The translations under genes were made by a program, and so were the position numbers. Below the pieces are notes generated by a model. The model saw nothing but the letters and a program-made list of their open reading frames with translations, did no database searches and was not told the origin of the DNA. From Propioniciclava sinopodophylli (GTDB lineage Bacteria > Actinomycetota > Actinomycetes > Propionibacteriales > Propionibacteriaceae), in assembly GCF_004324755.1 (NCBI RefSeq), contig NZ_SDMQ01000004.1, positions 1 to 64,000 on the forward strand: a stretch of 64,000 bases of DNA, written 5' to 3'. This document shows, in pieces, positions 2,385 to 64,000 of the stretch. Position 1 is the first letter of the stretch. The number at the start of each line of letters is the position of its first letter.

Positions 2385-2575
2385 CCCTTCACCCTAGGCG
2401 ACGGCGACACCTGGGGCGCCCGCCACGCGCGTAGGGCTGATCTTCATTGACGTCTCGCTCTCTCCCGGCGCCGGGACCTCCACGGCGCCATTGATTCGCA
2501 TTACTTCCTTATTAACTTAGGTGGCGTCGATGCCCCAAAGCCGTGCCAGACTTGGGGAGACGAGAGGAGGGGCGC

Positions 2576-3847: not shown

Positions 3848-3982
3848 CCCCCGCGCCCAGACGGCCAATACTTCGTTCATTGTCCGAACTTTTGGGGATC
3901 CGTCCATGCCCGCCATCGGGGCGGCCATTACCTGCGCGACGGCCAGCCGCGCCGCAAACGGCTCCACCTCCGAGGCGGACTG

Positions 3983-4230
3983 GGACCCATCACCGCCAAG
4001 TTCAACGAGGAGCACCCGAACGTCAAGGTTGAGCTGCAGATCGCCGGCTGGGACGACTTCGCCACGACGGTGCAGTCCCGCATCCAGGCCAACGACCTGC
4101 CCGACATCCTGAACGACAACGCCTTCGCGTCGTCGTCCGAGGCGGGTCTCCTGATCCCGATCGACGAGCTGCTGAGCGCCGAGACGATCGCCAACATCGA
4201 GCCCGGCCTGCTCGCCAACGCCAAGGGCGC
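3983..4230 (+). pseudogene. Remnant of an ABC sugar-transporter solute-binding protein
   Basis: About 82 codons encode a recognisable N-terminal segment of a family 1 extracellular solute-binding protein: ITAKFNEEHPNVKVEL, WDDFATTVQSRIQANDLPDI and LIPIDELL. The signal peptide region is missing, and at about 4230 the sequence switches directly into galactokinase sequence in another frame. The upstream stretch 3848-3982 has an AT-rich patch at about 3866-3895 that may be the old promoter or ROK operator. It is a deletion remnant, not a functional gene. Confidence 0.75.
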
Positions 4231-5119
4231 GCCACCTGGCGGGTGCCGGGTCGCATCGAGGTGCTGGGCAAGCACACGGACTACGCCGGCGGCAACGTCC
4301 TGGTCTGCGCGGCTGCCCAGTCCGTCACCGCCACCGCCACCCCTCTCTGCCCCCCCCACGGCGCCGACAGCCCCGGCTTCGCCCGCCGACAGCCCCGGTT
4401 TGGTCCGCCGACAGCCCCGTCCGGGCCTCGTGGCGCGCTCCTCGGCGTTCGACGGCGAGGTCGTCATCGACGCCGACGGCGCCACCCCCCTGCCGCCCGG
4501 ACACTGGGGCCGCTACGTCGCCACCGCCTGGCACCGCCTGCGCGCCAACTTCGGCGAGCTACCTGCCGCCGAGCTGACCTTCTCCTCCGACCTGCCGCTC
4601 GCCGCCGGCATGAGCTCCTCCTCCGCCCTCGTCGTCGCCTCCGCGCTGGCCCTGGCCGACCTCGCCGGGCTGCGCGAGACCGAGCTGTGGGCGTCCGAAC
4701 TCGGCGACGATCGCCTGCGGTGGGCCACCTACCTTGCCGCCACGGAGAACGGCGTCACGTTCGCGGGCCTGCCCGGCAGCGCCGGCGTCGGCACCCGCGG
4801 CGGCTCCGAGGACCACACCGGCATGCTGTGCTCCCGCCCCGGGCAGCTCGGCCAGTTCGGGTTCGACCCCGTCGCGCGCCACCGCCACGTCGCACTGCCG
4901 TCCGGGATGGTGTTCGTCGTCGGCCTCAGCGGTGTCATCGCCGAGAAGACCGGCGCGGCGCAGGCCCAGTACAACCGCGCATCGGACGCCGGCGCGTTCG
5001 CGTCCGACTGGCTGGCGCGCCACCGCGCGGCCTTCCCGCACCGCGTCCAGGCGGACACGCTCGTGACGGACGCCGCGGCCGCTGCCCAGCGCGTCCAACG
5101 GCCGTACTTGCGCGGCTAG
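4231..5119 (+). pseudogene. galK: Galactokinase (GHMP kinase) pseudogene
   Basis: The N-terminal galactokinase motif RVPGRIEVLGKHTDYAGG lies in frame 1 from 4231, joined directly to the solute-binding-protein remnant. Around 4363-4425 three copies of a repeat of about 22 nt interrupt the frame. After that the kinase continues in frame 2 with the ATP-binding LPLAAGMSSSSALVVASALAL motif (glycine/serine loop) and stops at 5119 before the third GHMP motif. It is therefore truncated at both ends and frameshifted. Loss of galactose phosphorylation through this locus is expected; another galK elsewhere cannot be excluded. Confidence 0.85.
4363..4425 (+). repeat. Tandem repeat of about 22 nt (GCCGACAGCCCCGG type), 3 units, in galK remnant
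   Basis: Three units begin GCCGACAGCCCCGG at 4363, 4385 and 4407, the spacing being exactly 22 nt. The same family forms arrays at 23294-23352 (inverted) and 43455-43585. Here it interrupts galactokinase coding sequence, which shows that the repeat can arise or insert inside genes. Confidence 0.85.
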
Positions 5120-5128
5120 GGTGGTCGC

Positions 5129-6154
5129 GTGAGATTCCTCTTCCTCGGCGCGGGCGCCATCGGGACGTACGTGGGGGGTTCGCTCGCCTCGGCCGGGCAC
5201 GACGTGGCCTTCATCGAGCAGCCCCTCCCTGCCGCTGAGATCGCCCGCCACGGCCTCGTGGTGGAGTCGGTCTCCGGCAGGCGCGAGGTCCGCGACGTGA
5301 CGCTGTTCACCGACGCGCGCGAGGCCCTCGACGCCGGCGGTTGGGACATCGCGGTCTTCGCCCTGAAGTCCTTCGACACTGCCGAGGCGGTCGACCAACT
5401 CGTTGCGACCGCACGGCCGGTGCCGACGATCCTGTCGCTGCAGAACGGCGTCGACAACGAGCCGCTCATCGCCTCGCGGCTGGGCGCCGACCGCGTCATC
5501 GCGGGCACCGTGACCACCGCGATCGGCAAGCCCGGCGTGGGCCACGTCGTCGAGGAGAAGCACCGCGGCATCGGCATCGCGCACGGCCACGCGTTGTCGG
5601 CGCAGGTGGCGGACGCCCTCAACGACGCCCGGCTGGGGGCGCGGACGTTCCCGGCCGCCGGGCCGATGAAGTGGTCGAAACTGCTGACCAACCTGCAGGG
5701 CAGCGCGACGTCGGCGATCCTCGACCTGCCGGTCGGGGCCATCTTCTCCGACAAGCGGCTGCTCGCGGTGGAGACGGCGTCGCTGCGCGAGTGCATCGCG
5801 GTGATGCGGGCGCTGGGCCACGACCCGGTCGACCTGCCCGGGACGCCCGTCCGCGCGCTCGCGTGGGCCGTGGAGCGGCTGCCCCAGTCGGTGACGCGTC
5901 CGATCTTCACCCGCCTGCTCGGCGGCTCGCGCGGCGACAAGATGCCGTCGCTCCACATCGACCTGCACGCCGGACGCGGCCGCTCCGAGGTGGGACACCT
6001 CCATGGCGCCGTCGTCCGCCACGGGGCGTCGGTGGGCGTGCCGACGCCGGTGAACGCCGTGCTGACGTCGGTGCTGGAGGGCCTCACCCTCGGCACCGAG
6101 GACATCGAGTCCTTCCGGCGCCGTCCCGAGGCCCTGCTCGCCCGCCTGCCCTGA
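5129..6154 (+). CDS. Ketopantoate reductase family protein (ApbA/PanE-like)
   Basis: The 341-aa protein opens with a Rossmann NADP-binding loop (GAGAIGTYVGGSLASAGHDV) and keeps the family landmarks ALKSFDT, SLQNGVDNE and the KWSKLLTNLQGSAT segment that carries the catalytic Lys and Asn. Canonical PanE makes D-pantoate from ketopantoate for coenzyme A synthesis. This one is about 40 residues longer than typical PanE and the family contains many paralogues, so the substrate is uncertain. It starts at GTG 5129, ten bases after the galK remnant, and ends directly before a repeat array. Confidence 0.85.
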   Translation: MRFLFLGAGAIGTYVGGSLASAGHDVAFIEQPLPAAEIARHGLVVESVSGRREVRDVTLFTDAREALDAGGWDIAVFALKSFDTAEAVDQLVATARPVPTILSLQNGVDNEPLIASRLGADRVIAGTVTTAIGKPGVGHVVEEKHRGIGIAHGHALSAQVADALNDARLGARTFPAAGPMKWSKLLTNLQGSATSAILDLPVGAIFSDKRLLAVETASLRECIAVMRALGHDPVDLPGTPVRALAWAVERLPQSVTRPIFTRLLGGSRGDKMPSLHIDLHAGRGRSEVGHLHGAVVRHGASVGVPTPVNAVLTSVLEGLTLGTEDIESFRRRPEALLARLP

Positions 6155-6156
6155 CC

Positions 6157-6240
6157 GCCGAGGGCTTGGGTTCGATCCGCCGAGGGCTTGGGTTCGATCC
6201 GCCGAGGGCTTGGGTTCAGTCCGCCGAGGGCTTGCCTTCA
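6157..6240 (+). repeat. 22-nt tandem repeat array (GCCGAGGGCTTG type), 4 units
   Basis: Units start at 6157, 6179, 6201 and 6223, each opening GCCGAGGGCTTG; the first three continue GGTTC and differ at only a few positions, and the last is 18 nt. The array fills the space between the stop codons of two convergent genes, and its end covers the stop of the right-hand gene. Related arrays and hairpins occur at 19438, 39561 and 48338. Possible role: bidirectional transcription end or a self-spreading repeat. Confidence 0.9.
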
Positions 6241-7260
6241 GGCCGGGGCCACCATGCCGACCTGGGCGCGCATGGCGTCCATCGTCTCCATGATCGAGAC
6301 CGTCTCGTCCAGCCCCAGCAGCGGCGACTCGGTGGCGCCGTCAGCCACCAGCTGCGCCAGGTGGGACGCCTCGTAGCACAGCCCGAGGTGCCCCGGGATA
6401 CGCGGGGCCTCCGACTCGAACACCTCCCCGTCCCGGCCGATGAGGCGGACGACCTGCGGGGTGTAGAACGGCCCGGCGAGCTCGACCCGGGCGTCCGTGC
6501 CGCTGATGGACGCCCTGGTCGGCGTCCGCGCCGCGAGCGTCGTCGTCACCAGCGCCGTCGCCCCGGACGCGTACTCGAGCACAGCCGACACCTGGCGGTC
6601 CACCCCGGTCTCGGTGAGCGTGCCAGCCGCGGAAATGCGGGTGGGCGTCCCGAGCACGAAGGACGCGTACGACACGGGGTAGACGCCCAGGTCGAGCAGC
6701 GCCCCGCCTGCGAGCTCGGGCGCGAACAGCCGTGAGGACCGGTCGAACGCGAACCACTGCCCGTGGTCGGCGGTGAGGGTCTCGATGGCGCCGAGCGCCC
6801 CGTCTGCGAGCAACTGCCGGACGATGTCGGTGGCCGGCAGGTAGCGCGTCCACATGGCCTCGACGGCGGTGACGCCGGCCGCGCGGGCGTTGTCCACGAC
6901 CTCGCGCGCCTCGGCGGCGGTGCGCGTGAAGGCCTTCTCGACCAGCACGTGCTTGCCTGCCGCGATCGCGAGCAGGGCCTGCTCACGGTGGTGCGAGTGC
7001 GGGGAGGCGATGTAGACCGCGTCCACCTCGGGGTCAGCGACCAGCGCCTCGTAGGAGTCGTGCGCGCGCCCGATCCCGAACCGCTGCGCGAAGGACGCCC
7101 CGCGCTCGGCCGAGCGCGACCCCACCGCCACCACCCGCTGGCGGGTGAACCGCTGCAGGGCCTCGACCATGGTGGCCGCGATGCCGCCGGGGGCGAGGAT
7201 GCCCCAGTTCAGGGGCGGGGCGGCCAGAGGGTCGGGCGTGCGCGGGGACGGCAGGTTCAT
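6238..7260 (-). CDS. Gfo/Idh/MocA family oxidoreductase
   Basis: The 340-aa protein has the N-terminal NAD(P)-binding Rossmann domain (LNWGILAPGGIAATM) and a C-terminal alpha/beta domain with GGALLDLGVYPVSYASFVLG. The usual EKP motif appears as EKAFTRT, so the Pro is replaced by Ala. Similar proteins oxidise sugars, inositols or dihydrodiols with NAD(P); no substrate can be assigned. The gene stands alone and its stop codon is formed within the repeat array at 6157-6240. Confidence 0.9.
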   Translation of the reverse strand: MNLPSPRTPDPLAAPPLNWGILAPGGIAATMVEALQRFTRQRVVAVGSRSAERGASFAQRFGIGRAHDSYEALVADPEVDAVYIASPHSHHREQALLAIAAGKHVLVEKAFTRTAAEAREVVDNARAAGVTAVEAMWTRYLPATDIVRQLLADGALGAIETLTADHGQWFAFDRSSRLFAPELAGGALLDLGVYPVSYASFVLGTPTRISAAGTLTETGVDRQVSAVLEYASGATALVTTTLAARTPTRASISGTDARVELAGPFYTPQVVRLIGRDGEVFESEAPRIPGHLGLCYEASHLAQLVADGATESPLLGLDETVSIMETMDAMRAQVGMVAPA

Positions 7261-7283
7261 CGCCCCAGCATGGCACCGCCCGT

Positions 7284-7297
7284 GGGGAGTGCTCCCC
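7284..7297. promoter_or_regulatory. Perfect 14-bp palindrome GGGGAGTGCTCCCC, copy 1
   Basis: The palindrome lies in the 108-bp region between the divergent oxidoreductase (start 7260) and the secreted protein (start 7369). An identical copy stands upstream of the membrane protein gene at 21443-21456. A shared operator is possible but untested. Confidence 0.4.
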
Positions 7298-7368
7298 GTT
7301 GCGGCCCGGACGCGCCGGGCCTAGGTTCGAGGCGTCCCCACCCCGGACCCACCCCCAAGGAGAAACAG

Positions 7369-7824
7369 ATGACCGTTCGTTCCCGCCTGTCCAAGCTGGC
7401 CCTCGCCACCGCCGCCACGGCCGGCAGCCTCGCGCTGCTCGTCTCGTCGGCGACCCCGGCGGAGGCCGCCTTCAGCCGTTCGCCGTACGGCACCAGCGTC
7501 GGCACCTCGTGTTCGGGCAGCAAGACCACCTACAACTACCCGGGCGGCGCCCCGTTCGCGATCGAGGTGTACTACAGCACCGCCTCGGGCGGCACCAACT
7601 GCGTCAAGCTCATCAACAAGTCGGGCCGCTACGCCGACATGCGCGTGAAGCTCGAGGTGCCGGCCAACAACTACGCGTACGCGCAGGACGTCGGCTACTA
7701 CCGCTCCTACGCCGGCGCCGTGCGGGTGCACAACACCAACGGCAAGTGCATCAACGTCTGGAGCGACGTGGTCCAGAGCGGCAAGTACTACTCCCGCGAC
7801 CTCGTGCAGGTGCACTGCGGCTGA
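7369..7824 (+). CDS. Small secreted protein of unknown function
   Basis: I do not recognise the family. The 151-aa product has a classical signal peptide (basic start, hydrophobic core, SSATPAEAAF cleavage region near residue 33), leaving a mature domain of about 118 residues rich in Tyr, Ser, Gly and Asn with four Cys (in GTSCSG, GTNCVK, GKCINV and VHCG), compatible with two disulfides. An AAGGAGA ribosome site precedes the ATG at 7369. The mature part looks like a compact beta-rich extracellular domain, an impression and not an assignment. Confidence 0.8.
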   Translation: MTVRSRLSKLALATAATAGSLALLVSSATPAEAAFSRSPYGTSVGTSCSGSKTTYNYPGGAPFAIEVYYSTASGGTNCVKLINKSGRYADMRVKLEVPANNYAYAQDVGYYRSYAGAVRVHNTNGKCINVWSDVVQSGKYYSRDLVQVHCG

Positions 7825-7858
7825 GCCCGCCCACGGGGCGGGGCCGTAGGCTGCCTGC

Positions 7859-8239
7859 ATGACCGAGGTACCCGACGGCTCCGACCCCGTGGCTCTGGCC
7901 AACTGGCTCTTCGACCTCGCCCGCCAGGGCGACGCGGCCCGCCTGGCCGCCTACGTGGACGCCGGCGCCCCCGTCGACCTGACCGACGCCGAGGGCAACA
8001 CCCTGCTGATGCTGGCCGCCTACCACGACCAGCCCGCGACGGTCGCCGCCCTCGTCGAGCGCGGCGCCGACGTCGAGGCCCAGAACCGGCGCGGCCAGTC
8101 GCCGCTCGCCGGCGCGGTGTTCAAGCAGGCCGACGAGGTCGTCCGCGTGCTGCTGGAGGCGGGCGCCGACCCCGACGCCGGGACGCCCACCGCCCGTCAG
8201 ACCGCCCAGATGTTCGGACGCCCCGAGCTGTTCGGCTAG
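7859..8239 (+). CDS. Ankyrin repeat protein
   Basis: The 126-aa protein is almost entirely ankyrin repeats, about three to four units, for example DLTDAEGNTLLMLAAYHDQPA, then AQNRRGQSPLAGAVFKQADEVV and the ending DPDAGTPTARQTAQMFGR. No signal peptide or membrane segment is seen, so it is likely a cytoplasmic protein-binding module. Short ankyrin proteins of this type are frequent in actinobacteria, sometimes beside catalase genes; no such partner is present here. Its stop codon overlaps the stop of the convergent gene. Confidence 0.88.
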   Translation: MTEVPDGSDPVALANWLFDLARQGDAARLAAYVDAGAPVDLTDAEGNTLLMLAAYHDQPATVAALVERGADVEAQNRRGQSPLAGAVFKQADEVVRVLLEAGADPDAGTPTARQTAQMFGRPELFG

Positions 8240-8763
8240 CGCCCACCCGGCCCCAACCGCGGCATCAGGAAGCGCTCGATGCCGCCGAACAGCGCCGCGA
8301 ACGGCGCCAGCGACCCCGCCGCCACCCCGGCCCGGGCAGGCAGCACCCCGCGCGCCGCCAGCCGCGACCCGATGCGCGCGAACAACGCGATCGCCACGGG
8401 CACCGGCCGGATGAACAGCGTCACCTCGGCGATCAGCCCGTCGTCCCCCAGGCGTAGCCACTGGATCTCCTCCAGATTCCGCCCGCCCAGGGTGTTGGTC
8501 CCGTGGACGACCCAGTCGTCGCCGGCGCCGGTCACCGCCTCGATCTCGATGTCGGCCAGCAGGTCGAGGGCCGCGCCGAAGACCTGCGCGACGTCACGGC
8601 GTCCGACGAAGGTGAAGGCGTCGGTGAGCGGCGAGCGCAACACGGCGTGCGGGGAGAGTTGGGCCTCCATGGCGGGCAGCTCCAGCAGGCGGTCGGCCTC
8701 GACCCAGGCGGCGATGGCGGGCGGCATCTCGGGGGGTGTGCGCATACCGCCATCCTGCTCCAT
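8236..8763 (-). CDS. SnoaL/NTF2-like fold protein
   Basis: The N-terminal 110 or so residues match the nuclear-transport-factor-2/SnoaL pattern: an N-terminal helix (AAWVEADRLLELPAMEAQL), a segment with SPLTDAFTFVGRRDVAQVF, and beta strands ending LRLGDDGLIAEVTLFIRPV. The C-terminal tail is hydrophobic and may form a membrane-associated helix (PVAIALFARIG). Proteins of this fold are small-molecule isomerases, hydrolases or binding proteins; no function can be named. A second possible start lies at 8745 (MRTPPEMPP). Confidence 0.72.
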   Translation of the reverse strand: MEQDGGMRTPPEMPPAIAAWVEADRLLELPAMEAQLSPHAVLRSPLTDAFTFVGRRDVAQVFGAALDLLADIEIEAVTGAGDDWVVHGTNTLGGRNLEEIQWLRLGDDGLIAEVTLFIRPVPVAIALFARIGSRLAARGVLPARAGVAAGSLAPFAALFGGIERFLMPRLGPGGR

Positions 8764-8773
8764 GCGGCAGGGG

Positions 8774-9480
8774 TCAGGGCACCAACCACGTGATGATCAG
8801 CGACACGGTCAGGCCGGTCAGGCCCATCGCCAGCCCCGAGAAGGCGCCCTGGGTCTGTCCCTCCTGGAAGGCCCGCGACGTGCCCACGCCGTGCGAGGCC
8901 ACGCCCATCGCCAGCCCGCGCGCCCGCGGGTCGGTGACGCGCACCAGGTCGAGGATCTTGGGCCCGATCACCGCGCCCGCCAGCCCCGCGACCATCACGA
9001 ACAGCACCGCCAGCGGCGCGAGCCCGCCGATCTGCTCGGCCAGAGCCATCGCGATCGGGGTCGTGGCCGACTTCGGCGCCATGGACGCCGCGAGCTCCGT
9101 CGAGCCGCCCAGCCACAGCGTCACCCAGTAGCCGGAGATGATCGAGAAGAACGCTCCCACGAGCACGGCGCCGAGCACCATCGGCGCGGCCTCCTTCACG
9201 TGCGAGGCCTGCCGGTGCAGCGGCAGCGCCAGCGCGACGGTGGCCGGCCCGAGCAGGATCGTCAGGATGCTCGCCCGTTCGCGTACGCCGTGTAGTCGAT
9301 ACCGGCCACGACCAGCACGATGCTGATCACGGTCACGGTGATGAGCAGCGGGGTCAGCAGGGGGTGGCGCCCGGAGCGCTCCCACAGCTTGTCGGCGGCC
9401 CAGTACACGCCCACGGTCAGGGTGAGCGCGAGCAGCGGCGAGGTCGAGAGCCACTCCCACGTGGCGGTCAGGTTCTCCAT
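8774..9480 (-). pseudogene. lrgB: LrgB family membrane protein, frameshifted
   Basis: The two halves of a normal LrgB protein of about 235 aa lie in different frames. The N-terminal half runs from ATG 9480 through VVAGIDYTAYANG, and the rest resumes with SILTILLGPATVALALPLHRQ and ends at 8774. The break lies at about 9274, in a GGGC stretch where one extra G would restore the family sequence. LrgA/LrgB pairs are membrane proteins linked to control of murein hydrolase activity and, in some species, pyruvate uptake. Either the gene is newly inactivated or the base is a sequence error. It overlaps lrgA by one base (TGATG). Confidence 0.88.
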
Positions 9481-54385: not shown

Positions 54386-55150
54386 CTACTTGTTGGGGCG
54401 CCGGTGTCCGCGGGTGCGGTAGGAGTCGCCGTCGAGCCCGATGACGTGGGCATGGTGGATGAGCCGGTCTATGGTGGCGGCGGCGACTATGACGTCGCCG
54501 AGGGTCTCTCCCCAGCGGCTGAAGGGCAGGTTCGAGGTCACGATCACCGAGCCGGTCTCGTAGCGGGACGCGATGAGTTGGAAGAACAACGCCGACGCGG
54601 TGGTGTCGAAGGGCAGGTAGCCGACCTCATCGATGATCAGCATCCGGTAGCGCTTGAGGCGTCGCAGCTCGCGTTCCAGACAGCCTGCGGCGTGCGCTGC
54701 GGCGAGGCGGTTGATCCAGCCGGTGGCCGAGTCGAACAAGACCGGGTGGGACGCTTCGGCGGCTTTCATGCCCAACGCGATCGCCAAGTGGGCCTTGCCC
54801 GTCCCCGGTGGCCCGAGCAGGACCACGTTGTCACGTTTCGCGATGAACGTCGTGGTGGCCAAGTGCGCGATCAGGTCACGGGACGCGGCCGGGACGTGGT
54901 CGAAGGTGAAGTCCTCCATCGTCTTGATCGTGGGGAAGTGCGCGGCGGCGATCCGCAGCCGGGTTCCGTTCGCGGTCCGGGAGGCGACCTGACGGCGCAG
55001 GACGGCCACCAGGTACTCCTCGTGGGACCAGCCGGCGTCGCGGGCCTGGTCGCCGAGGGTGGCGAACGTTTCAGCGATCACGGGGGTCTTCAGTTCCCGG
55101 GCCAGGAACGTGACCTCACCAGCGAGGTCACGAGTGAACGTGGTGCTCAT
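54386..55150 (-). CDS. istB: IS21 helper ATPase IstB
   Basis: The 254-aa AAA+ ATPase assists the IstA transposase. It shows Walker B IIDEVGYLPFD, sensor region VIVTSNLPFSRWGE and the C-terminal RTRGHRRPNK. The Walker A motif reads GPPGTGKAHLAIAL, with Ala in place of the usual Thr after the Lys, a change that may weaken nucleotide handling. It overlaps istA by four bases. It is otherwise a full-length member. Confidence 0.93.
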   Translation of the reverse strand: MSTTFTRDLAGEVTFLARELKTPVIAETFATLGDQARDAGWSHEEYLVAVLRRQVASRTANGTRLRIAAAHFPTIKTMEDFTFDHVPAASRDLIAHLATTTFIAKRDNVVLLGPPGTGKAHLAIALGMKAAEASHPVLFDSATGWINRLAAAHAAGCLERELRRLKRYRMLIIDEVGYLPFDTTASALFFQLIASRYETGSVIVTSNLPFSRWGETLGDVIVAAATIDRLIHHAHVIGLDGDSYRTRGHRRPNK

Positions 55151-56409
55151 CGGGCCACCGCCCCCACGTCGGTGTCCATACCCAGACGGGTCAGGTCGAA
55201 CATGTCGTCGTAGACGCTCAAGGGTCGCTGCCCGACCTGCTCCCCAGTCATCCAGGCGGTGGGCCTGCCCGCCGTCCGCTGGGTCCGGTAGGCCGTCCGC
55301 AGGCTCTTCGCGGTGGCCACGTGGACAGGGTCGGTGATCGTACGACGGGAGTCCCAGCAGCGGGCGTGGCCGGCGACCTGCTGCCCAGCGCAGGTGACCC
55401 TCACGGTGGTCAGGTCGTAGTGGACCTCGACGAACCGGCCGATCACAGTGGGGTCGACCGAGTAGTCGGTGCCGGCGACCCGCACGTAGTAGTCCCGACC
55501 CAACCGCACCCGTTCTGACCAGCCGATCCGCGGCGGCACCGGCGGCAACGCGGACATCGCCGTCACCTCAGCCTCGAGCCGATCGACGGGCCGGGCGCCC
55601 GTGCGCCGCAACAGCCGCTGGTTCGCTCGCGGTAGCCATCCCTCGAGCTGGGTGTTGAAATCAGCCGGTGAGCTGAACTCCCTACCCGGAAGGAACGACG
55701 TCTGCAAGAACCCGTTCGCCCGCTCCACCACGCCCTTGGCCTCAGGATCCCGGGGACGGGTCTGGTAGATCCGGGTCCCCAACGTGCCCGCGAACGCACG
55801 CGCCCCCACCGTGAGCCGCTGGTGCTGCCCGATCCCGGCCTCGTTGTCCCACACCAGCATCCGCGGTACCCCACCGAAACTGCCCGCCAACAGCTGCCAC
55901 ATGCCCGTCAGCAGATCGCTGGTCTGCCGGGTGGGCAGCAACACCGCGGCGATGAACCCCGACCAAGCGGCCACCATCGTCAACACCGGCGGCACCACCA
56001 GCACTTCAGGAGCGACCGGGATCACCTTGGGTGGGAACCACAAGTCGCATTGCACGATGTCGCCCGGCTGGTACTCGGTACGGTCGGCCGGATCGGCATG
56101 CAAATAGAACGGCCGCAGCTCGGCGACCTTCGCCCGCAAAACCGACGCCGAATGCTCCCACCCGATCCGCTCCGCGATCACCGTGGCCGGCATGTCCGGC
56201 GTCGCCGCCAACAACGCCCGGATCTGCGGCTCGACATCGTCGACCAACGACCCCGACGCCTTGCGTTCGTACTTGGGTGGGCCATCGGAGGCCAACGCGG
56301 CCCGCACCGTGTTACGAGCCACCCCCAACTGGCGGGCGATCGCCTTGATAGCCATCCCCTCCGACTTGTGCAGCCGTCGAATCTCGGCCCAATCCTCCAC
56401 ACTAATCAC
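55147..56409 (-). CDS. istA: IS21 transposase IstA
   Basis: The 420-aa DDE transposase has an N-terminal helix-turn-helix (ISVEDWAEIRRLHKSEGMAI, IARQLGVARNTVRAALA), then the RNase H core with Asp in QCDLWFPP, Asp in LVWDNEAGIG and Glu in GVVERANGFLQ, and a beta-barrel C-terminal part. I chose GTG 56409 because family members start MISVEDWAEI; an upstream TTG at 56436 is less likely. No break is seen. Confidence 0.93.
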   Translation of the reverse strand: MISVEDWAEIRRLHKSEGMAIKAIARQLGVARNTVRAALASDGPPKYERKASGSLVDDVEPQIRALLAATPDMPATVIAERIGWEHSASVLRAKVAELRPFYLHADPADRTEYQPGDIVQCDLWFPPKVIPVAPEVLVVPPVLTMVAAWSGFIAAVLLPTRQTSDLLTGMWQLLAGSFGGVPRMLVWDNEAGIGQHQRLTVGARAFAGTLGTRIYQTRPRDPEAKGVVERANGFLQTSFLPGREFSSPADFNTQLEGWLPRANQRLLRRTGARPVDRLEAEVTAMSALPPVPPRIGWSERVRLGRDYYVRVAGTDYSVDPTVIGRFVEVHYDLTTVRVTCAGQQVAGHARCWDSRRTITDPVHVATAKSLRTAYRTQRTAGRPTAWMTGEQVGQRPLSVYDDMFDLTRLGMDTDVGAVAR

Positions 56410-56423
56410 TCCCTCACTCTGTC

Positions 56424-56480
56424 CGAGGGGGGTCAAATTTCACTCGGCGCCACGGGGTCAGTATTCACTCGGCATCGACA
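56424..56480. repeat. IS21 right-end terminal repeats
   Basis: Inner repeat 56424-56448 and outer repeat 56454-56480, read inward from the right as TGTCGATGCCGAGTGAATAC then TGACCCC. They mirror the left end. Confidence 0.8.
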
Positions 56481-56769
56481 GGCCCTTGCCCGGCTTCTTG
56501 TTGTCTCCGTAGTAGGTGAAGTCACCGGTCGACGGATCAAGTTCGTCTGGCCAGTCGAGGTCCTCCCCCGACGTATAGAGAACCACCAAGCGCACGGTCC
56601 GCTGTCCGACGCTCCCCCTAAACCTGAAGCCGCCTTGGTTACCGACCGGGACGAGCCTGTTGATGGGGTCGTCGCCCGTGTTGCCCGCGCGTCCACCCCG
56701 ATACGTCCGGTCAACGACCAGATCAGCGTGCGGTAGGTCCCCGAACTCGACTACGGGCGCCATGGTCAC
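56458..56769 (-). pseudogene. N-terminal part of a putative restriction endonuclease, cut by IS21
   Basis: About 98 codons remain: APVVEFGDLPHADLVVDRTY, GNTGDDPINRLVPVGNQGGF, RLVVLYTSGEDLDWPDELDP and FTYYGDNKKPGKGL. I associate this pattern with the N-terminal domain of AspBHI-like, modification-dependent restriction endonucleases, from memory and without a search. The frame ends in the IS21 right end, so the nuclease part is lost. It starts at GTG 56769 overlapping the Vsr stop (GTGA), or at ATG 56763. Confidence 0.6.
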
Positions 56770-57224
56770 AGCATCCCAGAACCGGGTTTGGGGCTACCAA
56801 GACTCGGCTCCGCCAGGGCGCTTCGAACCATTTCCACAGCCTGAGCCGGCTCAACATGCTCCCAGATGCGGAGGACCCTCCAGCCCTCCTCGCGAAGCTT
56901 CGCATCGGTATCACGGTCTCGGGCCTCGTTGGTGGCCCTCTTCCAATCCCACCAGGAGGAGTTCCTCGCTGGAGGTTTGCGGTGCTCAGGGCAGCCGTGC
57001 CAGAAGCACCCGTCAATCAAGACCGCGAGCTTCTGACGCGGGAAGGCGACGTCGATGCGCCTCCGGGGAGCCCCCGGCATTGGGTACTCGACGCGATACC
57101 TCAGCCCCGAGGCATGCAGTGCTCGGCGGACGGCGAGCTCGGGAGCCGTATCGCGCCGCGCGAGCTGCGAGAACTTGGCGTGGACTGACGCGGTCGCGGC
57201 CTCGCGAGCTGGCTCACGAGTCAT
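56766..57224 (-). CDS. vsr: Vsr-family very short patch repair endonuclease
   Basis: The 152-aa protein matches Vsr: RRDTAPELAVRRALHASGLR, RRIDVAFPRQKLAVLIDGCF with the catalytic Asp, FWHGCPEHRKPPARNSSWW with zinc ligands, and GWRVLRIWEH. Vsr nicks T:G mismatches left by deamination of 5-methylcytosine, so a cytosine-C5 methyltransferase is usually nearby; none is in the window and it may lie just beyond 64000. I placed the start at ATG 57224, overlapping the 1772-aa gene by 11 bases. Confidence 0.92.
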   Translation of the reverse strand: MTREPAREAATASVHAKFSQLARRDTAPELAVRRALHASGLRYRVEYPMPGAPRRRIDVAFPRQKLAVLIDGCFWHGCPEHRKPPARNSSWWDWKRATNEARDRDTDAKLREEGWRVLRIWEHVEPAQAVEMVRSALAEPSLGSPKPGSGML

Positions 57225-60200
57225 CTCGAACAAGTTCGTAGAACGGCGTCGCACGGATAACCCGCCCGGGTTCATCAAGTCCCTTGTAGAGGGCGTAGTG
57301 AACCTCAAGGGAACCTACTGAATCAGCCACCCGTTCACTCACCCGAATGCCAACCTTGTCCAGATCCCGCTCATTCACCGAAGGAACCTTGTGCACGAAC
57401 CAGGTGAGCAGGGGCTCCGACCAGTCGTTCTTGCGGGTCCTGAAGTGGGACAGGAACTGGGACGACAGGATGACTCCGACTCCGTACTCACGCCCTTGGA
57501 GGAGCAGGTTCATGAGTACCTCGAAGTCATAACGCAGGATGTTGACAGCCTCATCAACCAAGAGGAACGAGTTCAGACGACGGAGTTGGGGCGATGCCCC
57601 TTCGAAAGGCCACTTCCGCTGCCGCGTCATATACCCGTAGTACTCATTGAGGAAGAGCGCCACCAACGAGTTCTTGCCATCCTGATCGTTGCCCAACTCA
57701 TTGACGGCCAGCACCACTACTGAGTCGCCGAGCAACTCGTCGAGTGACTGGGTCGGACCACGCCCATCAATGAAGATGTGGCGCATTACGAAGTTCGAGA
57801 GTATAGAAGTCACGGAGTCCGGTCGTCCGTCCTCGCGGTACCGCTCCAGTACAGAACTCAGCGTCGGGGCTTCGCCGGCCCGCTCCCGATACAGATCGAG
57901 GATCGTCGTGGTGAGCCGCTCTTTCTGGACCGGACCCACCCCGGCATAGATCCTCCCGAGGACGTCACAGAACTCGACAGCCACCTCGTATGCCGCGCGC
58001 TCGGAGTACTCGCCACGAATCGCCAGGGGGTTCAGCGGAATGTCTTCGGGGTGCAGAACCCGTCCTCCCACCGCCTCTAGGAACTCAGGGTCCTGAAAGT
58101 CCCTCTTGTAGTCGAAGATCAGGAAGCTCAAGGGGTTCGGCTGGTTCGCCTTGGCTTGGCGGCGCAATTGATAGACCAACGCCTTCAAGAGCTGCGTCTT
58201 GCCCGTGCCGAGATCTCCCGCCACCCCGATGTTCATCTGGTTGAGCCGGGTGTTGGACGGCCACAGAGATGGCCGATCTTGACCAAGTGATCCTCGGTAG
58301 TCACCGAGATCGAACTTGATACCCGACCCACGGAGCGTGTCGGCGAGCGGAGACTGGGCCAACGCAACGTTCGCTGCCGCATCCCCCGAGGGAACGACAA
58401 CTGGCTCCTGAGCCCGTTCGGAGGGCTCCAGAGTCGTGCCCGAGTCCACAGGCGTTACGTGCACTTGGTCCTCGAGGGGGACCTCGCGCGTTGCCCACTC
58501 GACGACCTTCGCCCACTGCGCGATCACCTCGTGGTCGGTTTGCTCCGACACGGCCTGGAAGACCAGGCGCGGGCGCGCAATCAGGCATCCGTAGTTCTCT
58601 GCTGCCGCTTCCACGTCCGTGTGCACATGGAAACCCGGTTGGACGTCATCGCCGTGCTGGAAGTAGACAACCACGGGGCTACCGACCTGCAGGGCTGACT
58701 CGCCACGGACGAGGGATTGCAGGACTTCGGTACTAGTAGGCGCCAGGTCACCATGGGTCTCGTCGCTCAGGCGAAGTCCACTCTCGATCAGGGTTGCGAA
58801 CGCGTTATCCCAAAGATCCGCATCGGTTGTGCCATCGATCAACTTGCGGCGCTCCAGTGCCTGCTTGAGCGACTGCACGGTGGCTGCCACTTGGCCGACT
58901 GCCTCGCGCGTTGCCGCGCCGGGCTGAGGGAGGGCGTGGCTATCGGCCGCACCGGCACCGTAGAACTTGATCTCGATCGGCACGAGCACCACAGATTGCC
59001 GCCGGATCCGCGCCAGTAACACGTCCGCCCGCTTGGAAGCGTTCCCGGCCGGGCTGCCACCCATCGCTTCGAGGAACGTGTCGCACGCGTCCAGAGGGAG
59101 TGCAATGTCGACTGCATCCCGCGTCTGTGCCGCATCCAGCAACTCGTAGGTCAAGTAGAAACCGAGCGCTCCTGACTCGTGTGTGTCGCCCCGCGTGAAC
59201 AACGACGACAGTCCGAGCCCGCGGGTCCCCAGTCTCTCGAGGACCCGATGCGACAGAAGCCCGAGTTGTTCATCATCGACAGCCGTGATGCTCCGTAGCT
59301 TGTCCAGGAGGTTGCGCTCAAGGGCAGGCGCTACGCGAGCGACGGTCACGTAGGGCCTCCGTTCGATGTGACCGCCCTGACCACCTTTACCTCCTTGAAG
59401 GTAAGGCGGACGCCATTCCCAGAGGAGACGTTTCGTCCCCGCCGTCGGCGCCTGCTCGACCAACAGTGCCCCAAGCGCACCCGGGCTCAGAAAGGCTTCT
59501 CCCGACACAGTCCAATCAGCCTCGGTGTCCACGAGGTAGCTCTGAGCCAGTCGAATCGCCAGGTCGGACGACTCGGGAGTCGATTCCAGCGCGTGGAGGG
59601 CAGCGTCGAAGCTGGCCCAGCCAGTCGGCGCCAGGGTCGTCGAGGAGGACGCCTCACTGTCTGCCACGAGTTCTGCCGTCGAGAAGCGCCGGAGTGGGAT
59701 CTTGCCGGCAACCTGTTCGCTCTTGAGCCGGGCCTCCTTGGCACGGATCTGCGCACCCGAGTCCTGCAGCAGCCGGATGTTGCTCCGGAGATTGCTTCCG
59801 AGCTTTGGCCGATATCGGGACCACGTCACGACCGAGCTACCGCCGTCGACGAGTTTGGTTAGCTCATCTCGGGGGAGGTCACCTGCTCGGTGCAGGGAGT
59901 CGAGCACCCGCACTCCTTGGAGCCGCCCCTGCCCGGTCCACGAACGGATGGTGGCCAGCACCGCTGTATCGACCTCGGCCAGCCGCGGAGAATCCGCTGA
60001 GGCCGAGAGGTCGATCGTAAGGCTGGGCACATGAGGATGCGCCCGTCGGAAGTCACGCAGGGCCGCCTCCGCCGCCGAAGCGGTAAGCCCACTGGGGGAG
60101 GAGCCGGGAGCCGGCTGCCCCATGATTCGCTCAGGGCTGGCGAGTGCCTGCCCCTGATTAGTCGAGACCGGGACCATCAGGGACCAAGCAGCAAAGATCT

Positions 60201-62532
60201 CCCCCGGACCAGAGTCGCTCGGGATTGCCAAGACCTTCCCGCTCGGAGTCGGCGACGGCCCGATCAGAGGGAAGGCCCATCCCTCAACGACACCAACGAG
60301 ACCCAGTGCTTCCTGAGATGCATCTTCGAGGGTGGCCTCTGTGGCCGCCAACCAAGCGAGCCGAACGGGGTGAAGCGGGCTCACGAGAACCGCGGTGCAG
60401 TTAGCCCCATCCCACACGCTGATGCTGAAGGGGAAGCATGCCCAGAACCGGTGGAAGTTGTTCTTCCCCGACGCAAGCTCGACCAGTTCGGAGTACGACT
60501 GTAGGTACTCGTCGAGAACTCCGGAGTCCTCGTCGAACAAGGAGCGCCAAGCCACCTTGCTCGGCCACCTGGCCGGGTCGCCCAGCCGCTGGAGAATCGC
60601 AGCAGCTGCCTTGGTGAACCGCTTGGCTTCGTCGGAGGACGCGAGGCTAGCGCTCACTGAGAGCCCCGTCTGAGCAGCCCAGTGCCCAGCGAATCCGTTC
60701 GGGGCAATCACCCGGTGGTCACCATGGACATTGAGGGCGTGGTCACTCAATTCGTCCCCTTCAGCGGGGAGGATGCAGTGGCCTAGCGCTCCGAGCAGAG
60801 CCTCGGGCTCACGGCTGGCAATGAACTCCTCGTAGATCCCCCGCACCATCCGCCTTGCAGGCTCGGGCGCTCGTCCTCGGAAGTAGGGCTCGGAGAACGG
60901 TGCAGCAGCAAGCGGGGTCTCATAGCGAGGGTCGCCCTCCGGACTGAGCAGTTGCAAGGTCGCATCGCCAATGCTCACCGTGGCGGACGCCTGGGCAGGA
61001 CACTCGGCGTAGGAGAATCCCACGCGCCCCGGGAGTGGCAACAGGCCCAGTTCCTCCGACGAGGACTCGCCTCCCCAGACAAGGACCAAATGCGGCAAGT
61101 CGGCGAGGTTGTGCGTGAACACCGTCTCTTCCTCGTCGACCCTTTCAGGCCCGCAGTACTTGGCGGGGCTGAGGGCACCCCCAGCACGCCGTGGGAACAC
61201 CAAGGCCCCCAGAGGTGAGGGGAGCAAGGTCAACGCGGCCTGGGCTCGCGAATTCACTCGCCCAAGGAGGTCTGGGTCCCGCGTGGCATCAAGGCTCAAC
61301 GTGACACGAATCGGCTTGATGCTGGCTCGCGGCTTAACCTCGACGTATCCGCGTACCATCGCGCGGTTTCCTCGAATCCGCGTCTCCAGCTTGCGGAACT
61401 TGGCGTATGCCGGCTTCGAGACGAGCTCTATGTCAATCGACTCATCGGGCCTCAACGCCTCCACGACTACACCAACCCAGAACTCCTGCGACGTCCACAT
61501 CTCCTCGCCGTCCAAGAGCGACAGCGGCGCCGGGCTGCCAGGGCCGGCCAGTTCAAGCTCCTCCCCGTCGATGGATTCCAGGTGGAGCGGCTCCTTGCTG
61601 GTCTCAGGAGCCTCGAACAACGAACGATGCATGTGGGACCACGCTGTCATCGCCTTGGGAGACCCCGTAACCGCCATCTGCAAGGCACGGAAGACGCTTC
61701 CCTCGCGAATGACGTTTTCGTCGAACTCGGCCCAATCGATCTCCTCCCACTTTGCTGACGGGTCCGCGACGGCGACGTGGGCCATCGTCACCTCGATCTG
61801 GGTGCTGTCTACCCACCAGTCCTCGGTCGCCTTCACGAACTGCCCAGGTGCCGTCGTAGCGCCCCATTTCTTGGTGACCTCGGGTTGCGGCAGACCGAAT
61901 GCAGTCCACACCCACCGGTCAAAGGCCTCTTCGAAGGACTCCTTGCCTGGGCTTACCTCGGCGGCCCGTAGGACGCCGATCAAGGTCGCGATGGCCAAGT
62001 CCACGTGCTTGTACCAGATGGAGTTCCACGACTCCGTTATGTCTGCACTCTTCTCGTAGATCGACGCAACGACGTCAAGTGCGAGCGTCAACGAAGCAGC
62101 AGAGGTTTGCCAGCTGCCTTGTTCAATCACCGTCGACAACTCGGCCTGGATCAGGTTCAGGAGGGCCTCGCCTAGTCGAGCCAACGGGAGGAGTTGGGAC
62201 TGCTGACGAGGGAACCCCGGCCCCACGGCCTGCCTGTAGGAACCATCAAACGAAGCGAGATCGACCCCGTTCCCGCCAACACAAGCGAGGCGGTCACCCT
62301 TCCGGTACTGAATCGCATTCGTTCGGGAAACCCGCGGCAGGCGGTTATCGGAGAGGTCCTCCTCTTCCGAGATGAGGATCGCGTAAGGCGGCGACGCGGG
62401 CCGCTCTTGATTGGCGGCGCACACGATGGACTCGGCGAACGAGCGCTCCAGATCACTGGGCAGTTGCACCACCAAGAGTCCGCTCTGACCAGCGCATACT
62501 TGCGCGATTGCCTGTGCGACGTAGGAGGCCAT
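57214..62532 (-). CDS. Giant 1772-aa defence-type protein: PD-(D/E)XK-like motif plus HerA/FtsK ATPase
   Basis: The C-terminal 350 residues are a HerA/FtsK-type ATPase: Walker A GDLGTGKT (1439-1446), Walker B-like FLIFDYKRDF (1470-1479), LLVDEAVNIL with Asp1660-Glu1661, and the sensor VILSSQFLSHF. Residues about 1170-1192 read ADVLL, then PIEIKFYG, the D...ExK pattern of PD-(D/E)XK nucleases (Asp1170, Glu1187, Lys1189). The first 1100 residues are unassigned but contain a VSPLHPVRLAWL block near 720. Size, ATPase type and a medium-size partner upstream recall the DptH subunit of phosphorothioation-dependent restriction, a hypothesis only. It starts two bases after the 472-aa gene and overlaps vsr, so one operon is likely. 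Codon use is less GC-biased than in flanking housekeeping genes, suggesting transfer. Confidence 0.8.
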   Translation of the reverse strand: MASYVAQAIAQVCAGQSGLLVVQLPSDLERSFAESIVCAANQERPASPPYAILISEEEDLSDNRLPRVSRTNAIQYRKGDRLACVGGNGVDLASFDGSYRQAVGPGFPRQQSQLLPLARLGEALLNLIQAELSTVIEQGSWQTSAASLTLALDVVASIYEKSADITESWNSIWYKHVDLAIATLIGVLRAAEVSPGKESFEEAFDRWVWTAFGLPQPEVTKKWGATTAPGQFVKATEDWWVDSTQIEVTMAHVAVADPSAKWEEIDWAEFDENVIREGSVFRALQMAVTGSPKAMTAWSHMHRSLFEAPETSKEPLHLESIDGEELELAGPGSPAPLSLLDGEEMWTSQEFWVGVVVEALRPDESIDIELVSKPAYAKFRKLETRIRGNRAMVRGYVEVKPRASIKPIRVTLSLDATRDPDLLGRVNSRAQAALTLLPSPLGALVFPRRAGGALSPAKYCGPERVDEEETVFTHNLADLPHLVLVWGGESSSEELGLLPLPGRVGFSYAECPAQASATVSIGDATLQLLSPEGDPRYETPLAAAPFSEPYFRGRAPEPARRMVRGIYEEFIASREPEALLGALGHCILPAEGDELSDHALNVHGDHRVIAPNGFAGHWAAQTGLSVSASLASSDEAKRFTKAAAAILQRLGDPARWPSKVAWRSLFDEDSGVLDEYLQSYSELVELASGKNNFHRFWACFPFSISVWDGANCTAVLVSPLHPVRLAWLAATEATLEDASQEALGLVGVVEGWAFPLIGPSPTPSGKVLAIPSDSGPGEIFAAWSLMVPVSTNQGQALASPERIMGQPAPGSSPSGLTASAAEAALRDFRRAHPHVPSLTIDLSASADSPRLAEVDTAVLATIRSWTGQGRLQGVRVLDSLHRAGDLPRDELTKLVDGGSSVVTWSRYRPKLGSNLRSNIRLLQDSGAQIRAKEARLKSEQVAGKIPLRRFSTAELVADSEASSSTTLAPTGWASFDAALHALESTPESSDLAIRLAQSYLVDTEADWTVSGEAFLSPGALGALLVEQAPTAGTKRLLWEWRPPYLQGGKGGQGGHIERRPYVTVARVAPALERNLLDKLRSITAVDDEQLGLLSHRVLERLGTRGLGLSSLFTRGDTHESGALGFYLTYELLDAAQTRDAVDIALPLDACDTFLEAMGGSPAGNASKRADVLLARIRRQSVVLVPIEIKFYGAGAADSHALPQPGAATREAVGQVAATVQSLKQALERRKLIDGTTDADLWDNAFATLIESGLRLSDETHGDLAPTSTEVLQSLVRGESALQVGSPVVVYFQHGDDVQPGFHVHTDVEAAAENYGCLIARPRLVFQAVSEQTDHEVIAQWAKVVEWATREVPLEDQVHVTPVDSGTTLEPSERAQEPVVVPSGDAAANVALAQSPLADTLRGSGIKFDLGDYRGSLGQDRPSLWPSNTRLNQMNIGVAGDLGTGKTQLLKALVYQLRRQAKANQPNPLSFLIFDYKRDFQDPEFLEAVGGRVLHPEDIPLNPLAIRGEYSERAAYEVAVEFCDVLGRIYAGVGPVQKERLTTTILDLYRERAGEAPTLSSVLERYREDGRPDSVTSILSNFVMRHIFIDGRGPTQSLDELLGDSVVVLAVNELGNDQDGKNSLVALFLNEYYGYMTRQRKWPFEGASPQLRRLNSFLLVDEAVNILRYDFEVLMNLLLQGREYGVGVILSSQFLSHFRTRKNDWSEPLLTWFVHKVPSVNERDLDKVGIRVSERVADSVGSLEVHYALYKGLDEPGRVIRATPFYELVRDDS

Positions 62533-62534
62533 GA

Positions 62535-63953
62535 CTACTCCCCTTCCCCAAATGGGCTAGCCACTCGGACCCCATGGTCCGCATCGGCACTTCCTCGTGC
62601 GAGACCCGCCGACTCAAGCAGCCGGACCAGTTCCGAGACAGGCGGCCGCAGCCCCAGCCGGGCCAACTCCTCAACGATCCTGCCCACATGGTTGGACGCG
62701 CCCGGCGCGGGCGCGGCAAGGCCCGCCACCATGGCAACCCATTCAGTCCCCGGGTCTAGCAGGGTGACATTGGTGCCACGCGGAACCAAGAGCCCATAGT
62801 GGTCAGACTGGTCGCGTCGAACGAGGGCGTAGAACACAGTTTCGTAGACGTTCTTCAAGGCGCTCGGGCGCGAGCTCTCGGACAGCGCGGCCTTGGCCTC
62901 ATTGAGGAATGCCGGGTTCGAGGCCCAGCCCCGGCCGGAGGGGTCGCCTTCAACCACGGCCCAGCGGGCCATGACGTTTCGAAGCCGCCCTCCCTCATCG
63001 ATTCTGCGCCTCATAGCTGGCCTGACGCTGCGCGAGCTCGGTGGGAGATAGGCGGCCGGCCAAGGGAGCAACTCCGGTTGACCCATATCCAAGGCATCCG
63101 CCAGTGTCCTGCTGCTGAGGATGCCCTGGAGGACGGACCGGTACCTCTCCGCCTCCCACAGGAATCCAAACGCCAAACCCATACGCAGGGTGGTGGTTGC
63201 CCAGTCGATCCAGACGCGCGGCGGGAGAGCGTCAACCCATTCGTTGCTGGTCAGCTTCACCCACGAGTCATGCAACCAGCCGAAGGGCGAATTGGGATAG
63301 GCCCCACGAAGGGAGTCAACCTCAGCTCTGGCGACCTGAGGGCGTTCACGATACTCCCCATAGAGTTCCACGAAAGCCGCATCCACGCGCGCGAGGACGG
63401 AGTCGGTGTCTACTCTCCGGCTTGCGGCGGATAGCCAGCGGGAAGCCATCGTGGGGCCGTCGCTTTCAGAGGACGGGGAGCCCATTGCGAACATCGCTTC
63501 CAAGATGGCTGCGTAGTTCACCGGATTGGCAAGCCCCGTCATACCCGTCGTGTCTTGGAGGAGCGCCAGGGCTGGGGTCATGGGACTTGCCGCCTGAACC
63601 TTGGCCCGAGTGGGCCGAACACCGGCGATGCTGTTGAGGAATGCCTTCGGTACGACGTTGCCTTCGAGTTCGTGGCTGATACCAGCTTCGGTGAGGGCGT
63701 CGCCGAACTTGACCAAGGCGTCACCAGTCGGCCGAGTTTCCTCACCCTTTGTCTTGGTGGAGGTCCGGTCAACCACTTGGTACTTGCGCCCTGCCGAAGT
63801 GCGAACGTCGGCGTACTCGAGGACTTCCCATGCGAGCGCCGAGATCAGTGTCTCTGCAGAAGGGACGTACTGAGGTCGGTTGAGGGGGAGAACCAGCGGG
63901 ACAGCGTTCAACGTCGGCTCCTCAGTCGGTTTCGACAGAAATCTGGTCGTCAC
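62535..63953 (-). CDS. Unrecognised 472-aa partner protein of the giant ATPase
   Basis: I do not recognise the family. The protein starts at GTG 63953, overlaps the end of the upstream partial gene by 32 bases and ends two bases before the 1772-aa gene, so it belongs to the same operon. It has no signal peptide or clear membrane segment. Visible features are an N-terminal LNAVPLVLPLNRPQYVPSAE, a mostly helical middle rich in Trp (FGWLHDSWVKLTSNEWVDAL) and a C-terminal helical part (GRIVEELARLGLRPPVSELV). A DptG-like role is conceivable from gene order alone. Confidence 0.8.
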   Translation of the reverse strand: MTTRFLSKPTEEPTLNAVPLVLPLNRPQYVPSAETLISALAWEVLEYADVRTSAGRKYQVVDRTSTKTKGEETRPTGDALVKFGDALTEAGISHELEGNVVPKAFLNSIAGVRPTRAKVQAASPMTPALALLQDTTGMTGLANPVNYAAILEAMFAMGSPSSESDGPTMASRWLSAASRRVDTDSVLARVDAAFVELYGEYRERPQVARAEVDSLRGAYPNSPFGWLHDSWVKLTSNEWVDALPPRVWIDWATTTLRMGLAFGFLWEAERYRSVLQGILSSRTLADALDMGQPELLPWPAAYLPPSSRSVRPAMRRRIDEGGRLRNVMARWAVVEGDPSGRGWASNPAFLNEAKAALSESSRPSALKNVYETVFYALVRRDQSDHYGLLVPRGTNVTLLDPGTEWVAMVAGLAAPAPGASNHVGRIVEELARLGLRPPVSELVRLLESAGLARGSADADHGVRVASPFGEGE

Positions 63954-64000
63954 GCATCCCGTGCTCGACCGCCAGCGGGGGGTTCTGCGCCAGCCTGCTA
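63922..64000 (-). CDS. C-terminal end of an upstream operon gene, partial
   Basis: Twenty-five codons from the window edge read SRLAQNPPLAVEHGMRDDQ then ISVETD and a TGA at 63924-63922. The overlap with the next start is typical of this operon. Too little is present to name the protein. Confidence 0.5.
   Translation of the reverse strand, partial: SRLAQNPPLAVEHGMRDDQISVETD

Follow-up and report, generated by a model that had tools for sequence, protein, structure and literature searches.

DndF, DndG and DndH (DptFGH) have been interpreted either as the partner that reads the sulfur marks made by the DndBCDE modification proteins or as a stand-alone system. DndFGH nicks DNA while translocating, and phosphorothioate (PT) modification represses its ATP hydrolysis and hence its nicking; without PT it harms the host (PMC11662687). 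The SspBCD-SspFGH system resembles it, with a Walker A motif in its F and an FtsK-like C-terminus in its H beside a modification module (PMC8092258). DndFGH is often uncoupled from DndABCDE, and a cytosine methylase takes the place of PT in the Dnd-related CxC-DndE (Pbe-like) systems (PMC10853773, section 16 for the latter), a remark on Dnd and cytosine methylases taken up again in 2026 in a paper on the diversity of BREX. In the sections cited here, PMC10853773 does not link cytosine methylases to FGH, and 'Vsr' is absent from its main text.

Here we describe a locus of Propioniciclava sinopodophylli in which relatives of these three proteins, called F, G and H below, stand beside a cytosine-5 methyltransferase and a Vsr-family endonuclease. 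The window analysed is a stretch of 64,000 bases (bases 1-64000 of the 201,503-base contig NZ_SDMQ01000004.1; genome 3.07 Mb); the operon continues past its end, and the contig was read beyond base 64000. The locus shares with DndBCDE-DndFGH the F-G-H order, a predicted DndG-like fold and the combination of PD-(D/E)XK motif and HerA/FtsK ATPase in H, but no dnd modification genes are seen, and in their place stands the methyltransferase, often with vsr or a gene for a MIG-like glycosylase. It differs from the Ssp system, whose modification is single-strand PT, and from CxC-DndE, where the methylase joins a DndDE/CxC ABC-ATPase core whereas here it joins FGH. With a probability of roughly two in three, we read H as the motor-nuclease subunit of a mobile restriction-modification-like cassette in which 5-methylcytosine, not phosphorothioate, holds a DndFGH-type nuclease off self DNA.

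F, G and H compared with DndFGH

H is encoded on the minus strand at 57214..62532 as a DndH/DptH-like protein of 1772 aa without internal stops, with a HerA/FtsK ATPase at its C-terminus and a PD-(D/E)XK-type nuclease motif upstream. The ATPase domain (residues 1420-1768; 57229..58275, minus strand) matches the solved DptH ATPase 7ES4 (phmmer, E-value 2.1e-48) and, over residues 1424-1767, the PADLOC model for DndH (E 7.6e-61). It carries the Walker A motif GDLGTGKT at residues 1439-1446 (58195..58218, minus strand) and the Walker B-type acidic pair D1660-E1661 (57550..57555, minus strand). The nuclease motif, D1170...P1185-x-E1187-x-K1189 (58966..59025, minus strand), is followed 25 residues after K1189 by Q1214. 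Among 79 aligned H sequences of at least 1500 aa (those of the window and of G281, another genome of its class, included), D1170, E1187, K1189, Q1214, K1445, D1660, E1661 and Q1692 are each identical in 79/79, and the nuclease and ATPase motif residues are therefore more than chance; P1185 is kept in 77. Q1692 is probably the sensor Gln of the ATPase.

The nuclease-region profile of H aligns with the nuclease region of canonical DptH at E 7.8e-6, placing D1170 on D and PIEIK on PVEVK, and a reversed-sequence control gave E 0.66. AlphaFold modelling of residues 221-1420 (40 sequences; predicted local distance difference test, pLDDT, 82; predicted template-modelling score, pTM, 0.75) puts the motif on two successive strands, 1171-1177 and 1180-1191, ahead of a helix, 1206-1231, that bears Q1214. 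This modelled strand-strand-helix placement is as expected for PD-(D/E)XK. A Foldseek search with the same model returned mainly immunoglobulin-like beta-sandwiches, with a few methyltransferase matches and no restriction enzyme among the best 50 of 893. The PD-(D/E)XK domain is thus predicted from sequence, profile alignment and secondary structure, with the fold unconfirmed by Foldseek. The N-terminal half of DndH consists of an inactive SWI2/SNF2 domain, a helix-turn-helix, two beta-sandwiches, target recognition domains and an inactive adenine methyltransferase fold; residues 450-1000 of H give a weak profile match to canonical DptH (E 4.8e-4), and residues 1-450 have no detectable profile similarity to it.

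G (62535..63953, minus strand) has 472 aa from the start at 63953, and its open frame extends to contig base 64034, outside the window. Its AlphaFold model (pLDDT 89.6) has DndG (7EXX) as top PDB match, with a Foldseek probability of 1.00, E 5.4e-3 and TM scores of 0.41/0.43, and the next best probability among the other 49 matches listed is 0.21. The model suggests a DndG-like fold of three winged helix-turn-helix domains, the packing of which may differ from that of DndG since the overall root-mean-square deviation from 7EXX is 10.8. F is a DndF-like P-loop protein of 639 aa (63922-65841, minus strand; its 3' end, 63922..64000, lies in the window). Its Walker A motif GGPGxGK[S/T] and the NRG of CxNRG are each found in 75/77 sequences, and an [N/Q]DA[T/S] element reads ND in 2/6 and QD in 4/6. 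These motifs are close to the description of DndF in section 20 of PMC10853773, a derived P-loop kinase that has Walker A, an ND where strand 2 ends, Asn in its Walker B, a large helical lid and an alpha+beta domain.

Comparison by hhalign with a small canonical set (five F, four G, four H) paired each protein with its namesake: E 7.6e-58 over 730 columns for H with DptH, E 4.5e-4 over the C-terminal 79 columns for G with DptG, and E 1.8e-6 for F with DptF, against E 0.011 to 0.89 for the six off-diagonal comparisons. By profile, the three proteins are homologous to DndF, DndG and DndH, and their genes follow the same order; H is DndH/DptH-like in its nuclease and ATPase part. PADLOC recognises only H of the three: F and G of the window and of locus L007, the two members tried, matched none of its models, and no Pfam or NCBIfam model scored above cut-off for F and G of the window.

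These results bear on a first-pass annotation made from the letters of the window. It had suggested that H may be DptH-like, as the DndH, 7ES4 and 730-column matches bear out, and the Walker A, the acidic DE pair and D1170, E1187 and K1189 all lie where it had placed them. Its gene arrangement, with H overlapping the vsr frame and starting 2 bases past the end of the 472-aa gene, was confirmed from the frames, but that gene, which it took to be unrecognised, is recognisable as DndG-like. It had also named two findings that would count against a new nuclease machine. The first was a profile match of the whole protein to a characterised system, and the match obtained covers the C-terminal half of H, not its full length; for residues 1170-1190 the model gave the strand-strand-helix arrangement, whereas Foldseek gave no nuclease match within the best 50.

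Linkage to a cytosine-5 methyltransferase

The methyltransferase (433 aa; contig 65972-67273, plus strand, entirely outside the window) is transcribed divergently from F, from which it is separated by 130 bases. It matches PF00145 at E 5.7e-54 and is the sole PF00145 match in the source genome, in which a search for DndC found none. The cassette measures about 10.5-11 kb, and the PPCQG motif is present in 71/76 cassette methyltransferases.

Searches with H found it in 1/197 genomes of the same family and 2/396 of the phylum, the source genome counted in each. Four plasmid loci and G281 were known before the large scan, among them L010, in which H is in two frames and no vsr adjoins. An earlier scan of genome contigs with a single query gave no relative; a scan of 84,980 species genomes with an alignment of H, started from methyltransferase-linked members and two peptide patterns and thus sampling this clade by design rather than all DndH relatives, found 81, of which 80 loci were kept. 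F, G and H were all recognised in 70/80, and the survey counts below refer to these 70. The ten loci without a matched F or G were excluded: L021 (which has a methyltransferase), L024, L026, L032 (H broken), L037 (vsr), L038 (another architecture), L042, L073, L086 (glycosylase) and L091.

A cytosine-5 methyltransferase is present in all 70 loci and lies within 1.5 kb in 69, the remaining one being L087, where it is 7.9 kb from H. vsr is found in 45, and a single-sequence search for dndB, dndC, dndD and dndE found them in none. The commonest order, methyltransferase-F-G-H-vsr on one strand, occurs in 35/70; another 13 have an inverted methyltransferase downstream and no vsr. A type II restriction-modification system would have a single separate endonuclease that cuts at the site of its methyltransferase. 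The largest other gene family of the neighbourhoods, a glycosylase, reaches 10 loci, and the three-gene FGH is the conserved part that is linked to the methyltransferase. The hosts are Actinomycetota, Pseudomonadota, Myxococcota, Planctomycetota, Verrucomicrobiota and Bacteroidota, and in the 49 of 70 host genomes searched for DndC one match was over the cut-off and one more below it. In this clade, linkage to the methyltransferase is conserved across several phyla with no phosphorothioation genes alongside, and on the survey we reject chance adjacency of methyltransferase and vsr. Among seven control loci, canonical or other HerA plasmid loci, three have dndBCDE; blastp with two cassette methyltransferases and the window's Vsr found neither enzyme in the seven, the upstream side of L093 being nearly unseen.

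A tree of the ATPase domain was built from the 79 H sequences and eight others. The 75 methyltransferase-linked rows fall on one side of a branch with support 97/97, and the eight canonical or conjugative-element rows fall opposite. The four rows without a methyltransferase in the examined sequence (L026, L038, L073 and L091) lie on the same side as the 75. As its other possibility the annotation had offered a new translocase-nuclease machine with Vsr as part of a methylation-linked locus, and this too is supported: the operon holds both vsr and a cytosine methyltransferase, and dnd genes were not seen in it. The co-occurrence that it expected of a new system was observed in the survey, with the methyltransferase and the lack of dnd genes throughout the 70 loci and vsr, which can be replaced, in 45; SspBCD was not searched for by profiles of its own.

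The methyltransferase is less tightly bound to the trio than F, G and H are to one another. Over 74 loci, Spearman correlations of divergence are 0.94-0.95 within F, G and H and 0.61-0.64 between the methyltransferase and FGH. In 61 of 2701 pairs, many of them involving L072, H is at least 60% identical and the methyltransferase less than 45%. The extreme pair is L072 and L051, with H 91% identical (91-92% across H, F and G), the methyltransferase 34% identical, and its gene shifted from upstream to downstream. Either the exchanged methyltransferases have the same target, or FGH recognises 5-methylcytosine whatever its context.

General sensing of methylation would also suit a type IV-like or abortive system, in which the trigger is foreign modification, or the loss of self-methylation when a phage attacks the methyltransferase, and not plain unmethylated DNA. 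DndF has been proposed to sense modified nucleotides (PMC10853773), and near-identical FGH with different methyltransferases, as in L072 and L051, fits such a system. However, the published mode of DndFGH and SspFGH is restriction of unmodified DNA (PMC8092258, PMC11662687), and the linked methyltransferase is retained at every one of the 70 loci; we consider a trigger of this kind unlikely.

Several members of the wider set are recorded here in their own right. L026 and L091, which are outside the 70 because the G profile did not match, are both from Bryobacterales, and the F of L091 has 1284 aa with a DruA/DUF4338 domain and weak similarity to SspF. L038 (Akkermansiaceae bacterium UBA5020) has a frame of 1812 aa (3669-9107, plus strand) that joins a Cas10/Cmr2 N-terminus (Cmr2_N, E 2.6e-22; PADLOC Cas10, E 3.3e-49 over residues 7-326) to the nuclease-ATPase end of DndH (E 7.7e-71; residues 1188-1809 in one model), and a cas1 gene stands alongside it (2422-3462, minus strand; E 4.6e-81). 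It may be a CRISPR type III-DndH chimera, and an artefact at the join is conceivable since the assembly is metagenomic. On a Priestia megaterium plasmid (L095), dptF, dptG and an H-like gene adjoin genes for a Dam-type methyltransferase and an AlwI-family restriction enzyme; the 25 kb examined contain no dnd genes. In two Vibrio plasmids with conjugation genes (L012 and L094), DptH-like ATPase domains occur in large proteins adjoining mobI, and these group in the ATPase tree with Vibrio L093 and L098.

Proposed repair module and genomic setting

vsr lies at 56766..57224 on the minus strand, in a frame that opens at 57308; the ATG at 57224 is the likelier start and would give an 11-base overlap with H. 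Its product matches TIGR00632 (E 3.8e-28; 98.2 bits against a cut-off of 97.85) and 1CW0 (E 5e-13). Before GCFWH it has Asp, where 51 cassette copies have His in 43, Asp in 3, Asn in 2 and no such motif in 3. With Asp in place of the usual His, the activity of the window's copy should not be taken for granted.

Vsr is frequent but replaceable. A glycosylase of the HhH-GPD family adjoins H or the methyltransferase in 10 of the 25 vsr-less loci and in none of the 45 vsr-bearing ones (Fisher p 8e-6). Four members match Pfam HhH-GPD, and for the one member searched, from L052, the best PDB match (E 2.9e-32) is 1KEA, described as a possible G-T mismatch repair enzyme, with MutY structures ranking lower. 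Tyr and Asp positions that we take to be the catalytic residues of MIG are kept in 10/10 copies reaching them. One of the ten, in L087, is a frame that overlaps its methyltransferase and is cut by the end of the locus. In Marinobacter the glycosylase of L080 looks like a direct replacement of vsr, which its tree neighbours L076 and L079 have. Two sets of matches were discarded: tblastn matches of the L087 glycosylase query in vsr-less loci, which resemble antisense methyltransferase sequence, and short matches of the L076 Vsr query, which fall on the end of H.

Alternation of two unrelated T:G-acting enzymes argues that the third module repairs deaminated methylcytosine, and hence that the methyltransferase is active. 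Vsr might instead be a nicking effector of the cassette: the Vsr model in PADLOC is labelled a type II nicking endonuclease, the window's copy departs from the usual His, and in Caulobacter cells lacking a cytosine methyltransferase the DNA damage response requires a Vsr-like protein (PMC12907096). The pattern of replacement, with the two enzymes sharing a T:G repair role, makes this distinctly improbable. With repair as the preferred role, the alternation is a natural case of two unrelated enzymes occupying one repair slot beside a methyltransferase.

The region from F to vsr, with the methyltransferase, is probably an acquired island, because G+C is lower at 56-68 kb (61-67%, against 68-74% at 68-76 kb, in 1-kb blocks; most of the window has 69-75% in 2-kb blocks) and because two minus-strand frames at window positions 54386-56436, which by eye resemble an IS21-type istB and istA pair, adjoin vsr at the edge of the low-G+C island. 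All five cassette profiles match a further locus, L100, from IMG/VR and classed as viral, in the order methyltransferase-F-G-H-vsr (21 of 45 kb examined); it is either a sign of mobility or a misclassified island.

A methyl-braked motor as the proposed mechanism

The proposed cassette consists of the cytosine-5 methyltransferase with F, G and H, and often a mismatch-repair enzyme. Because the trio is homologous to DndFGH, we infer the same machine with a 5-methylcytosine brake. By this analogy F, G and H would assemble as DndFGH does, the ATPase of H would translocate DNA, and its PD-(D/E)XK domain would nick or cut it. The 5-methylcytosine made by the linked enzyme would be read by the complex, through G or the DNA-binding parts of H, and would stop the ATP-powered motor on self DNA, leaving unmethylated incoming DNA as the sole target and so defending the cell. 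Vsr, or a MIG-like glycosylase in other lineages, would repair the T:G mismatches that arise from deamination of methylcytosine.

Several points weigh against this reading. Besides the Foldseek outcome and the unmatched first 450 residues of H, the survey was seeded with methyltransferase-linked members, and the F-G-H-like trios of L026 and L091 lie inside the clade yet show no methyltransferase in the examined sequence. Divergence of the methyltransferase tracks that of FGH only in part. Of the 25 loci without vsr, 15 have no glycosylase either, 4 of these 15 ending no more than 1.2 kb from the cassette, and the nearest NCBIfam model of the glycosylase is mutY, far below its cut-off. Finally, restriction was not fully abolished when dndF, dndG or dndH was deleted singly (PMC12707154); even for DndFGH, then, it is uncertain that one obligate complex is at work.

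Comparison with known systems places the cassette nearest to DndFGH. DISARM class 2 (drmMII) combines a cytosine methyltransferase with a multi-gene ATP-dependent restriction part. Among the matches listed for the window's methyltransferase (25 of 63), DrmMII appears at E 3.1e-37, ranking after methyltransferase models of type II and Druantia systems, and PADLOC gave no support for DISARM, since F, G, H and Vsr of the window had no drm match. MADS was rejected: H matches mad8 at 4.4e-17, far below DndH at 7.6e-61; none of the mad models was matched by F, G or Vsr, nor by the methyltransferase among the same 25. PADLOC scans gave no support for SspFGH either, with no Ssp model matching F, G or H of the window at E up to 1, a negative that comes from PADLOC models, which may not include SspG and SspH, and not from a direct comparison with SspFGH sequences. 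For CxC-DndE, the lack of dndB, dndC, dndD and dndE at the 70 loci bears on the comparison, CxC itself not having been searched for. That FGH relies on phosphorothioation made elsewhere in the genome, with the methyltransferase and Vsr as mere neighbours, would suit the kinship with DndFGH and the dndBCDE genes beside DptFGH in 3/7 control loci, but it is highly improbable, and the locus is not a PT-dependent (Dpt) system, given the dnd-free loci, the source genome without a DndC match, the 1/49 hosts over the cut-off (2/49 with any match) and the methyltransferase within 1.5 kb at 69/70 loci.

In the open-access literature (PMC), the scope of our search as against subscription papers and supplements, no description of a cassette of FGH, cytosine methyltransferase and Vsr was found among the titles and abstract openings of the papers listed, and we regard the FGH-cytosine methyltransferase cassette as a new variant of DndFGH-type restriction. 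Defence surveys probably count too few such systems, since PADLOC did not recognise F or G in either of the two members tried.

The existence of a deep clade with cytosine methylation as its partner would account for self/non-self discrimination by FGH without sulfur, and so compact a cassette would make that question directly testable in the laboratory. The chances seem evenly balanced that it represents a widespread restriction-modification class in which a DndFGH-type nuclease reads 5-methylcytosine as the self mark, the methyltransferase is exchangeable with hardly any change in FGH, and repair by Vsr or a MIG-like enzyme, each able to stand in for the other, is a built-in third module. 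In that case FGH would work as a 'modification-braked motor' of general use, paired with either sulfur or methyl marks.

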